From: Halonotius pteroides
GTDB taxonomy: Archaea; Halobacteriota; Halobacteria; Halobacteriales; Haloferacaceae
DNA: 64,000 nucleotides
Direction of reading: 5' to 3'
NCBI RefSeq assembly: GCF_003605635.1
Contig: NZ_QMDW01000012.1
Span: 1 to 64,000 of the forward strand
The first letter of the stretch is position 1; every line of letters begins with the position of its first letter. The notes under the pieces were generated by a model. That model had not been told where the DNA came from. It saw only the letters and a program-made list of their open reading frames with translations, and did no database searches. This document shows positions 740 to 5,221 of this stretch, piece after piece. A program made the translations under genes and the position numbers.

Positions 740-1312
740 TTAGACGAGCAGCTGAATATCGGATTCAGCCATGTGCTGCAGGGCGGTCGCCGCGCCAACG
801 CCGACAGTCACGTCGTCGTAGAAGTCGTCCTCGTCGTACTCCATCAGCTCGATAGTCATCTGGCAGGCTTGGAGCTCGACGCCCTGCTCCAATGAAAGGT
901 CGATCAGTTCCTTGATCGTCGCCGTGCCGTTGTCGTCGATTCGGTTCTCCATCATGCGCGTGGCGAGCCGATCCATCCCCGGCAGCGCCGCCAGCGCGTT
1001 CGGCATCGGCATATTGGGGTTGCCAACCGCCGACAGCTGGAGCTTCTCTGATTTCTCCTCGTGGAGGATATCGAGGCCCCAGAACGTGTGAAAGACAACG
1101 ACATCCCAGCCGAAAGCGGCAGCGGTACTCGCCAGGATCAACGGCGGGTAGGCCATATCGAAGGTACCCTGTGTCGCCACGATCGTCATCTTCTGTTGCT
1201 CGTCGTCGGTTTCGAGATCAGCAACCGTCTCCTCTAACTCCTCGATGCGAGCCTGAAGCTCGGCGGTGCTGAGTTGCGTTCCGTCGGCGGTGCTGGATGG
1301 CTCGGTACTCAT
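740..1312 (-). CDS. DsrE/DsrF-like sulfur-carrier family protein
   Basis: This 190-residue protein has an acidic N-terminal segment (residues 1-40, a short coiled coil around LQARIEELEETVADLE) and then a DsrE/DsrF-fold domain beginning at MTIVATQGTFDMAYPPLILA. This resembles DsrE2, which in sulfur-oxidising prokaryotes relays persulfide sulfur with TusA and rhodanese. A candidate carrier cysteine is in LQACQMTIELM near residue 146. It lies one base downstream of tusA on the same strand, so the two are very likely co-transcribed. The neighbouring persulfide-dioxygenase-like and YeeE genes support a role in reactive-sulfur handling. The family is clear; the exact relay reaction is inferred. Confidence 0.85.
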   Translation of the reverse strand: MSTEPSSTADGTQLSTAELQARIEELEETVADLETDDEQQKMTIVATQGTFDMAYPPLILASTAAAFGWDVVVFHTFWGLDILHEEKSEKLQLSAVGNPNMPMPNALAALPGMDRLATRMMENRIDDNGTATIKELIDLSLEQGVELQACQMTIELMEYDEDDFYDDVTVGVGAATALQHMAESDIQLLV

Positions 1313-1313
1313 A

Positions 1314-1559
1314 TTAGGCCGTCTTCTCGACGTAGTGTTTGTACACGTCGCCGTCCTCGACCTGCTCGAGGAGTTCGACGCCGCTGGTACCGGCGGCCCA
1401 GCCGTCGATGTCGCTCATGCTACCCTTGTCGGTCGATAACACTTCGAGGACGCCGCCGTCGGGCACGTTGTCGATGGCGGATTTGGTTTTGACAACCGGC
1501 ATTGGACACGATGCACCCTTCACGTCAAGCGTCTCGGTAACGTCGTAGGTTACGCTCAT
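1314..1559 (-). CDS. tusA: TusA/SirA-family sulfur carrier
   Basis: An 81-residue TusA-like protein with the defining CPxP motif (GASCPMPVVKTKSAI, residues 16-30). The cysteine carries sulfane sulfur as a persulfide for transfer to partners such as DsrE. The length equals that of free-standing TusA proteins. It is the first gene of a leftward two-gene unit with the DsrE-like gene, and it faces the rhodanese/MBL gene across a 269-bp divergent promoter region holding related inverted repeats. Because it is paired with DsrE and YeeE genes, sulfur oxidation or persulfide trafficking seems likelier than tRNA thiolation. Confidence 0.9.
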   Translation of the reverse strand: MSVTYDVTETLDVKGASCPMPVVKTKSAIDNVPDGGVLEVLSTDKGSMSDIDGWAAGTSGVELLEQVEDGDVYKHYVEKTA

Positions 1560-1576
1560 ATGTGTGTGGACTCCGT

Positions 1577-1598
1577 TTGTATTGGAGTTACCCTACAA
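1577..1598. promoter_or_regulatory. Inverted repeat in the tusA promoter
   Basis: TTGTA (1577-1581) and TACAA (1594-1598) are separated by 12 bp, only 18 bp upstream of the tusA start. The block TTGGAGTTACCCTACAA closely resembles TTGAGAATTACTATACAA at 1771-1788 on the other side of the same intergenic region. This suggests one regulator controls both directions. Confidence 0.5.
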
Positions 1599-1761
1599 TA
1601 TTGGGGCAGGATATAAAAGAATACCGATTAGTGTACATCACTCAAACAACTGTGGCGATCAAACCCGCGATATCGCGCACGCAAAAAGAGAAATTACCTT
1701 CTAAAGTAGTGATTTAATTGTTCTGACGACTTTTTTCCTGAGAGTAGTGCAGCCACCTGTA

Positions 1762-3022: not shown

Positions 3023-3030
3023 CTCGATCG

Positions 3031-3522
3031 ATGGTAGCTGATCTCCTCACCATTCAGTTGCTCACCGAGCTATTCCCGAACGGGGTCAGCCGGTATGCGA
3101 TCGGCGGGCTGTTCGTCGGGGTCGGCGCGGCGGCGATCTACGCGGGCACCGCGATCAACGCCGGAGCAAGTACCTTTCTCGAGTCGACGCTGTCGTACGT
3201 CTCTGATCGCTCGCGGTTCAGTCGGTATGTCCGATCGCGTGACTGGCGGCTGGTCTTTACGCTAGGGATTATCCTCGGGGCGGCCGTCTACGCCGTCGTC
3301 TTTCAGGGCGGGGCGTGGACGACCGATGTGGCCCCGTGGCGACTCCTGGTCGGCGGGATCTTCGTCGGGATCGGCACCCGGATCGGGAAGGGCTGTACCT
3401 CCGGCCACGGCGTCTGTGGCGTCGGTTCGGCGTCAAAAACGTCGATAGCGGGGGTACTCGCCTTCCTGTTGACCGCGATCATCACCGCTCAAGTCGTCGC
3501 CGCACTGGGGGTGACGCCATGA
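3031..3522 (+). CDS. YeeE/YedE-family membrane protein, first half
   Basis: A 163-residue membrane protein with about four transmembrane segments and the family motif IGKGCTSGHGVCGVG near residues 118-132. Known YeeE proteins take up thiosulfate with conserved cysteines in such GC.SGHG motifs. Full-length YeeE has two such halves; in haloarchaea they are often two genes, as here. It starts 8 bp after the rhodanese/MBL gene and overlaps the next half-gene by an ATGA, so the two are translationally coupled. A thiosulfate or sulfur-compound channel is a family-based inference. Confidence 0.85.
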   Translation: MVADLLTIQLLTELFPNGVSRYAIGGLFVGVGAAAIYAGTAINAGASTFLESTLSYVSDRSRFSRYVRSRDWRLVFTLGIILGAAVYAVVFQGGAWTTDVAPWRLLVGGIFVGIGTRIGKGCTSGHGVCGVGSASKTSIAGVLAFLLTAIITAQVVAALGVTP

Positions 3523-3995
3523 GCACCGCCGGGGGCAACGAGGGCCGACACCCGCTTTTCATGCCGTTGATCCTCGTCGGCGGGCTGATATTCGGCTTCG
3601 GACTGGGTTACAGCCACATGGCCCGCCCTGAGGTCGTGCTTGACTTCCTGCAGTTCGAGGATTTCGGGCTGCTGTTTGTCATGTTCGGCGGCGCAGCGGT
3701 CACCGGGCTCGCCTACAGCGTTGTCCCACGACTGTTCGACCGCGCACCGCTGACCGGTGACAGCTTCGGTCGCCGGCTGAAACACTTCGATCGCAACGTG
3801 TTGGTCGGCGGCGGTATCTTCGGCGTCGGCTGGGGGCTGTCGGGCATCTGTCCGGGCGCGGGCTACGCCAGCCTCGGCGTCGGCAACCTCCCGATCCTGT
3901 GGGCGATCGGTGGCATGTTCATCGGCGCGTACGCCCAGGGCGTCTGGCGGAGTCACACCGCACAGTCCGACGGCGCACCCGCGAGCGCGGACTGA
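3519..3995 (+). CDS. YeeE/YedE-family membrane protein, second half
   Basis: The 158-residue product starts at the ATG that overlaps the previous stop (ATGA at 3519-3522). It has about four transmembrane segments and the motif GWGLSGICPGAGYASLGVG (about residues 102-120), with a cysteine at the place matching GC.SGHG in the first half. The two proteins are probably the two halves of one YeeE-like importer for thiosulfate or a related sulfur compound. A longer frame reaching back into the previous gene exists, but its extra part is antisense-like and arginine-rich, so I reject it. Confidence 0.85.
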   Translation: MSTAGGNEGRHPLFMPLILVGGLIFGFGLGYSHMARPEVVLDFLQFEDFGLLFVMFGGAAVTGLAYSVVPRLFDRAPLTGDSFGRRLKHFDRNVLVGGGIFGVGWGLSGICPGAGYASLGVGNLPILWAIGGMFIGAYAQGVWRSHTAQSDGAPASAD

Positions 3996-4024
3996 CGGCT
4001 GCCCATACGATTTTCACACATATC

Positions 4025-5221
4025 ATGGAACTCGCAGCTATCGCGTTGTTTCTCGTCGCCGGACTCGCCAGTCTGTTCATGGCGTGGGTGATCGGGGCCG
4101 GCTCAAGCGGGGCGACCCCCTTCGCGCCGGCGGTCGGAGCCAACGCCATCCCGACGATGCAGGCCGCCTTCATCGTCGGCCTGCTCGGGTTTGCCGGCGC
4201 GATCACCCAAGGCACCAACGTCTCGGCGACCGTCGGGGGCGGCCTGATCGGCGGCGTTGAGATTCCCGCGGTCGGCGTGATCGTCATCTTGCTCGTCGGA
4301 GCCGGGCTGATGGCCGTTGGCATCCACACCGGGTATCCGATCGCCACGGCCTTCACCGTCACCGGCGCGGTCGTCGGCGTCGGGCTGGCGATTGGGGGCG
4401 CGCCCGCCTGGGAAACCTACCAGCAGGTCGGTGCCGTCTGGGTGTTAACACCGATCGTCGGCGGCGGGGTCGCCTACGGGATCGCCAGTGTGTTGCCGCG
4501 GCCCGACGCTCCCGAGACGGTCACCGTCCCCGTGTTGGCCGCCGTGGTCGGCGTCGTTCTCGCAAACGTCGAGTTCGCGTTTCTCGGCCCCAACGGCACG
4601 GTGGGATCGCTCACGGGCGCGGTTGGTCGGCAAGTTGGGGGCGGACTGGGCACAACCGCCGGTGTTGCCGCCGTGGTCGCCGTGGGGATCGCCGCGCTCG
4701 TTCGCTGGGATATCAGCCGCGATGAGGCCGGCGGGCTGCGACACGTCTTGCTCGTGTTGGGGTCGTTGGTCGCCTTTTCGGCGGGCGGTAGTCAGGTCGG
4801 GCTCGCGGTCGGACCGCTGTTGCCGCTGGTTTCAACGGTTGGTGCTCTCTCACCCGCGATCATTCTCGCTGGCGGCGGGCTCGGCATCCTTGCAGGCTCG
4901 TGGCTCGGCGCGCCACGCATGATCAAATCACTCGCCCAGGACTACTCCGATCTCGGTCCTCGGCGGTCGATCGCCGCGCTCGTCCCGGCGTTTCTGATCG
5001 CACAGGTGGCGGTGCTGTTGGGCGTCCCGGTCTCGTTCAACGAGATCATCGTCAGCGGGATCGTCGGCGGCGGCGCGGCTGTCGGCGGCGGATCGGCGGT
5101 CGACCCCCGAAAACTGCTGGTCACCGTCGGCGCGTGGACCGGTTCGCTTGGGCTATCGTTTGCCGTCGGCTACGGCGTGATGACCGGGCTACAGGTGGCG
5201 TCGTCGACCCCGCTCGCGTGA
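4025..5221 (+). CDS. PiT-family permease in a sulfur operon
   Basis: A 398-residue polytopic membrane protein of the inorganic phosphate transporter (PiT) family. It has two homologous halves: FAPAVGANAIPTMQAAF and GAITQGTNVSATVGGG near the N-terminus and ISGIVGGGAAVGGGSAVD-like glycine-rich turns late in the protein. I chose the ATG at 4025 because the frame upstream overlaps the previous gene without family similarity. PiT members are usually phosphate:cation symporters, but the family includes sulfate permeases (CysP). Its position 29 bp after the YeeE pair, in a TusA/DsrE/persulfide-dioxygenase cluster, makes a sulfur oxyanion (sulfate, sulfite or thiosulfate) a credible substrate. The sequence alone does not settle this. 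Confidence 0.8.
   Translation: MELAAIALFLVAGLASLFMAWVIGAGSSGATPFAPAVGANAIPTMQAAFIVGLLGFAGAITQGTNVSATVGGGLIGGVEIPAVGVIVILLVGAGLMAVGIHTGYPIATAFTVTGAVVGVGLAIGGAPAWETYQQVGAVWVLTPIVGGGVAYGIASVLPRPDAPETVTVPVLAAVVGVVLANVEFAFLGPNGTVGSLTGAVGRQVGGGLGTTAGVAAVVAVGIAALVRWDISRDEAGGLRHVLLVLGSLVAFSAGGSQVGLAVGPLLPLVSTVGALSPAIILAGGGLGILAGSWLGAPRMIKSLAQDYSDLGPRRSIAALVPAFLIAQVAVLLGVPVSFNEIIVSGIVGGGAAVGGGSAVDPRKLLVTVGAWTGSLGLSFAVGYGVMTGLQVASSTPLA

Follow-up and report, generated by a model that had tools for sequence, protein, structure and literature searches.

A bigR/blh-like, predicted persulfide-oxidation module in haloarchaea with a PiT-family permease lacking the phosphate-signature aspartates

The bigR operon of Agrobacterium and Xylella combines a sulfurtransferase domain followed by an ETHE1-like domain with two YeeE halves and a permease, and its Blh protein couples sulfurtransferase and dioxygenase domains to convert H2S to sulfite, which is secreted by a sulfite exporter (PMC5823870). 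In Agrobacterium the genes run blh-bigR-YeeE-YeeE-TauE. The staphylococcal Cst system (cstR, cstA, cstB, tauE) likewise contains a persulfide dioxygenase-sulfurtransferase, sulfurtransferase partners and TauE, the carriers being fused in CstA. Here we describe a six-gene block at positions 740-5221 of a 64,000-nucleotide stretch (the window) of the haloarchaeon Halonotius pteroides (contig NZ_QMDW01000012.1, positions 1 to 64,000). With moderate confidence, sequence comparison suggests that the block is a bigR/blh-like haloarchaeal module for persulfide oxidation and reactive-sulfur detoxification, in which an aspartate-less PiT permease moves sulfite or thiosulfate, probably outwards. Open reading frame (ORF) calls and Pfam profile matches to each family confirm the six genes that a preliminary description of this DNA had placed here. 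The genes and two conserved promoter boxes are as follows:

740-1312, minus strand: DsrE2-type sulfur carrier with an N-terminal extension and a single cysteine, Cys150 (PF13686, E = 1.6e-49; C150 in 86/86 homologues)
1314-1559, minus strand: TusA sulfur carrier with Cys18 in CPMP (PF01206, E = 7e-20; C18 in 90/90)
1577-1604, no strand assigned: tusA-side conserved promoter box TTGTATTGGAGTTACCCTACAATATTGG, an imperfect inverted repeat, with consensus CTGTATTGGAGCTA followed by ACAATA (49/85 intergenic regions)
1759-1800, plus strand: rhodanese-side conserved promoter box GTATTGT...TACTATACAAAC with TATA-like CTTTTGTAT (69/85 intergenic regions)
1829-3022, plus strand: N-terminal rhodanese fused to a predicted ETHE1-like MBL persulfide dioxygenase (PF00581 and PF00753)
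3031-3522, plus strand: YeeE C-terminal-half protein (YeeE1), PmpA-like, with Cys122 in GCTSGHG (PF04143 profile positions 178-309; C122 in 91/91)
3522-3995, plus strand: YeeE N-terminal-half protein (YeeE2), PmpB-like, with Cys110 in GICPGAG (PF20398/DUF6691; PF04143 positions 55-106; C110 in 90/90)
4025-5221, plus strand: PiT-family permease without the signature aspartates, with GAGSSGATPF and SAGGSQVGLA (PF01384, E = 8e-43)

The genes form two divergent transcription units, with dsrE2-tusA reading leftwards and the rhodanese-MBL gene, the two YeeE halves and PiT reading rightwards. One promoter had been proposed for the whole block; the two units do share a single intergenic region of 269 bp, but each has its own conserved box. 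Gaps within the rightward unit are at most ~30 nt, and the YeeE halves overlap by one base. The PiT start is taken as the ATG at 4025, ~30 nt past the YeeE2 stop; the alternative start from the ORF listing, a GTG at 3899, overlaps YeeE2. YeeE1 carries a second conserved cysteine, Cys129. The DsrE2 protein scores 160 bits against the 210-bit equivalog cut-off of NF047629 and thus falls below it, its Pfam family still being PF13686.

Among known architectures, the bigR/blh operon is the nearest to this block and a better match than Cst, because the rhodanese domain precedes the MBL domain, as the sulfurtransferase domain does in Blh. The preliminary description had pointed to Cst instead, which we reject as the closest system on domain order, since in CstB the MBL domain comes first; Cst also has neither YeeE halves nor PiT and uses a different regulator. 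Compared with the bigR operon, the haloarchaeal module contains a classical rhodanese (PF00581) rather than PF04273 (DUF442), adds the divergent tusA-dsrE2 unit, has no ArsR-type BigR repressor among its genes, and carries a PiT that replaces, or stands ahead of, TauE. The YeeE proteins resemble the PmpA/PmpB and TsuA/YeeE transporters in being two half-length proteins, each with a conserved cysteine. In YeeE transporters, the N half corresponds to PmpB-type and the C half to PmpA-type proteins, for which a heterodimer has been proposed (PMC11582611). The window encodes just such a short C-half and N-half pair, but here the halves, with a putative transport function, are fixed in an oxidation module. 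Among archaea, Metallosphaera and other Sulfolobaceae also handle sulfur with TusA and a DsrE-family partner, whereas the haloarchaeal block has no heterodisulfide-reductase genes and would use oxidation of the persulfide dioxygenase (PDO) type instead. A search of the open-licence literature (haloarchaea plus persulfide dioxygenase, with a wider search by title and abstract start) returned no description of this module.

The PiT protein was searched against 60 relatives and the rhodanese-MBL protein against 341 members of the class, all 341 of which give some match to the latter at E ≤ 1e-3. About 100 regions were read and the 98 loci with a rhodanese-MBL anchor analysed; these were picked along the identity ranking rather than at random, and their counts are not population frequencies. 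The arrangement is far beyond chance, the order of its five-gene core recurring in most of the 98 loci. The association with tusA and yeeE, to which the preliminary description had drawn attention, is borne out by a divergent tusA and YeeE core in 84 of the 98, PiT being present in 45 of those 84. All 41 PiT matches of at least 67% identity (66 genomes) lie directly behind the rhodanese-MBL gene. The module is also found on the Halobacterium salinarum plasmid PHS1 (OE_RS10720-10745), with OE_RS10730 as its rhodanese-MBL gene and OE_RS10745 as its PiT; the same organism has a TauE gene (OE_RS10765) and a gene for an Lrs14/Sta1-type protein (OE_RS10770). The module PiT occurs on many other haloarchaeal plasmids as well; in one relative (G021) only PiT and one YeeE half lie within the region read. 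The module is therefore conserved and widespread in haloarchaea and no local accident.

The permease slot is variable, with PiT alone in 19 of the 98 loci, PiT then TauE in 28, TauE alone in 23 and neither in 28. Halomarina BND7 and Haladaptatus QDMS2, for example, have the same core with TauE instead of PiT. Because PiT and TauE co-occur in 28 loci, PiT does not simply stand in for TauE, and the idea of pure replacement was dropped. In a FastTree phylogeny of the rhodanese-MBL proteins, which has weak inner support, the slot labels cluster yet switch repeatedly (19 label changes overall, 9 for PiT); locus L108, with a TauE slot, falls among the PiT-type branches, and the opposite holds for L154.

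At the GANDVANA positions the permease reads GAGSSGATPF and SAGGSQVGLA, and both aspartates are absent. Alignment shows both to be replaced in every haloarchaeal PiT sampled, and all four PiTs of this genome are without them; S27, S28, S256 and Q257 are invariant among module PiTs. TmPiT retains both aspartates, and in E. coli PitA the N half reads NGFHDTANA and the C half SHGANDG (the latter read from the sequence, as automatic alignment misplaces it). Bacillus-type CysP from cysH-cysP-sat-cysC operons has NIGASGAAA and FSAGMNNVANA. Both GANDVANA aspartates are reported to be essential for phosphate transport, and their replacement is a reported mark of sulfate as opposed to phosphate PiTs (PMC5840216). 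In a phylogeny, the approach by which the preliminary description had hoped to place the permease, the phosphate pair PitA/TmPiT is split from all 64 other proteins (98/83), although PitA sits on a very long branch and is placed with uncertainty. All module PiTs fall into a single clade (100/98), nested in a haloarchaeal clade (100/100) whose members lack the aspartates; they are separate also from CysP, which joins a second haloarchaeal PiT type (100/95). E. coli PitA matches the PitA model only, whereas the sole model matched by the haloarchaeal proteins is that of CysP, with low to moderate scores.

Haloarchaeal records, including those of Halobacterium salinarum plasmids, annotate the permease as an "inorganic phosphate transporter". 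This annotation is probably wrong, since both signature aspartates are missing, the protein clusters away from PitA/TmPiT and its linkage to sulfur genes is invariable, all of which bears out the doubt about phosphate specificity voiced in the preliminary description. Of its companion idea, that the permease might carry sulfate, sulfite or thiosulfate as CysP does, the substrate class stands and the family does not: a sulfur oxyanion is the likely substrate, but membership of CysP is rejected on score, on its separate clade and on the missing Sat and CysH.

The alternative that survives best is that PiT works as a CysP-like symporter, importing thiosulfate, sulfite or sulfate to supply the enzymes with sulfur, instead of exporting waste. 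CysP is indeed the best NCBIfam match, though a weak one (NF053884, 48.4 bits against an equivalog cut-off of 400), the two proteins share a PiT fold without the phosphate aspartates and a C-half FSAG where phosphate PiTs have FSHG, and the known PiT carriers are importers. By contrast, Bacillus CysP sits with cysH, sat and cysC, which are absent from the haloarchaeal module. ATP sulfurylase (Sat) was found in two of 66 genomes (G112 and G353), neither with a module PiT, and CysH in none of the 66 above the cut-off, with one weaker match and the CysDN route not searched for. Lacking CysH, these genomes have no standard route of sulfate reduction through which imported sulfate might be assimilated, and an assimilatory, CysP-like role in the module-PiT genomes is therefore disfavoured. 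The YeeE halves, moreover, already offer a likely route for thiosulfate import, and the PiT slot is shared with TauE exporters. We consider this import function rather unlikely, and for the direction of transport as such we lean slightly towards efflux.

Other PiT genes occur outside the module. A second aspartate-less PiT type (L051:7039-8223; contig C31 of this genome), ~55-62% identical to the window PiT, stands alone in most of the haloarchaea searched and is probably also mis-annotated as a phosphate transporter. At L061:2112-9179, a lone PiT paralogue annotated as an anion permease lies directly behind genes for a molybdopterin oxidoreductase, an Fe-S/NrfD fusion and a molybdenum cofactor guanylyltransferase; rhodanese and TauE are encoded upstream, making this another PiT that adjoins sulfur-redox genes.

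In the rhodanese-MBL protein, the rhodanese domain spans residues 18-117 and the MBL domain residues 145-309 (Pfam). The rhodanese Cys85, in CAKGGAS, is invariant (98/98), as is each of the MBL residues H185-x-H187-x-D189-H190, H245, D263 and H310, while R272 is kept in 97/98. This is the HxHxDH / H / D ligand pattern of ETHE1 and PDO proteins, and the metal ligands and Arg272 align with those of human ETHE1 (PDB 4chl, E = 3.6e-21); the PDB relatives also include bacterial PDO-rhodanese fusions. The protein scores far below the Blh equivalog NF040641 (42.6 bits vs 625), and its N domain is PF00581, not PF04273 (DUF442/BLH_phosphatase). The ligand pattern and the PDB matches suggest that the MBL domain is a persulfide dioxygenase of the ETHE1 type. 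It is improbable that the module serves chiefly for sulfur assimilation or trafficking (tRNA thiolation, cofactor sulfur or thiosulfate use) through TusA, DsrE2 and YeeE, with the MBL domain in some other hydrolase role: TusA and YeeE-type proteins do deliver sulfur in other organisms, and glyoxalase II models match the MBL domain too, but the ETHE1-type His/Asp ligands and Arg272 are kept, ETHE1/PDO-type proteins are the best PDB matches, and the co-location with TauE indicates sulfite production.

Least probable is an ordinary phosphate PiT merely co-transcribed with sulfur genes, for which the PF01384 match, the database annotation and a PhoU_div (DUF47) gene 223 bp from dsrE2 (32-517, minus strand; the sole PF01865 match in this genome) speak, since no haloarchaeal PiT sampled keeps the reportedly essential aspartates (PMC5840216), the sulfur-module linkage is invariable and PhoU_div is unlinked even within the genus. 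The PhoU_div gene is absent from all three same-genus relatives and is therefore not part of the module, and a phosphate link through this neighbour was rejected. PhoU_div proteins are frequent partners of phosphate PiTs.

The reactive-sulfur role put forward in the preliminary description is supported by the families, the invariant cysteines and ETHE1 ligands, and the conserved block. Families and gene context suggest a route in which thiosulfate or sulfane sulfur would enter through a PmpAB-like channel of YeeE halves, or arise from sulfide, and be relayed by TusA and DsrE2 as protein persulfides. Persulfide and thiosulfate would exchange sulfur at the rhodanese domain, and a low-molecular-weight persulfide would be oxidized aerobically to sulfite, with O2, by the ETHE1-like MBL domain; the two domains together would turn persulfide into sulfite and thiosulfate. 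The persulfide thiol is probably gamma-glutamylcysteine, which haloarchaea use (PMC7278568); the title of a 1985 study cited there names gamma-glutamylcysteine and thiosulfate as the haloarchaeal major small thiols (PMC7278568). PiT and/or TauE would then move the products, PiT carrying sulfite or thiosulfate, probably out, in the slot held by TauE, alone or jointly, in other haloarchaea. Several points weigh against this persulfide-oxidation and efflux model. PiT and TauE stand together in 28 loci, and neither was detected nearby in another 28. Functionally characterized PiT proteins import their substrates coupled to cations, and efflux by PiT would therefore be a new mode. PhoU_div adjoins the module in this genome, and transport, expression or enzyme data turned up for none of the module members.

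Both promoter boxes recur across haloarchaea. Within two mismatches, CTGTATTGGAGCTA occurs in 49 of 85 non-redundant intergenic regions against 0.08 in shuffles, and TACTATGCAAAC, ~50 nt ahead of the start, in 69 of 85 against 1.3, the shuffles ignoring shared ancestry in both cases. A 134-aa winged-helix protein with a TrmB Pfam match, and Lrs14/Sta1 NCBIfam matches under the cut-off, is encoded in ~50 loci, and 58/58 sequences keep two cysteines (C-x5-C) close to the N terminus. One copy in this genome lies beside TauE on contig C30 (G000:C30:42147-42518); in one relative (G003) the regulator-TauE pair is on the module's own contig. The regulator gene is preceded by a similar element, TTGTRCA...TATGCAAA, recognized by eye. 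Together with the boxes, this two-cysteine Lrs14/Sta1-type protein, a putative persulfide sensor, is a candidate control part, and we infer that the module may be controlled by such a regulator encoded elsewhere. Lrs14/Sta1-like regulators lie near TauE in many haloarchaea (e.g. L055:13875-14279).

Cytochrome bd genes neighbour the module in some loci, Halobacterium among them (L055:2214-4650), and could supply sulfide-resistant respiration. In L093, L095, L107, L121 and L135, PiT and TauE are separated by a tandem universal-stress-protein-like gene of opposite orientation, ~3.3-4.6 kb downstream of the rhodanese-MBL start. Almost all of the haloarchaeal TauE loci read encode a ~50-aa protein (PF24352, DUF7512) directly ahead of TauE (L056:8266-8412, L057:8211-8372). 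Downstream DUF2103 and cytochrome oxidase genes were rejected as members, being near the module in close relatives only.

Tentatively, then, the aspartate-less PiT (SLC20-type) clade, in our sample only haloarchaeal, may be a sulfite/thiosulfate exporter in the TauE slot of a persulfide-oxidation operon under the control of a two-cysteine Lrs14/Sta1-type sensor. If true, this would give the PiT family a new substrate and a new direction, and BigR/CstR sensing an archaeal counterpart. The module could also bear on the reported status of thiosulfate as a major small thiol in halobacteria, and the Halobacterium salinarum copy opens it to direct test. If our reading holds, haloarchaea would possess a bigR-like persulfide-oxidation module in which a PiT-fold protein serves as permease for sulfur oxyanions, along with a candidate archaeal regulator of the thiol-based kind.

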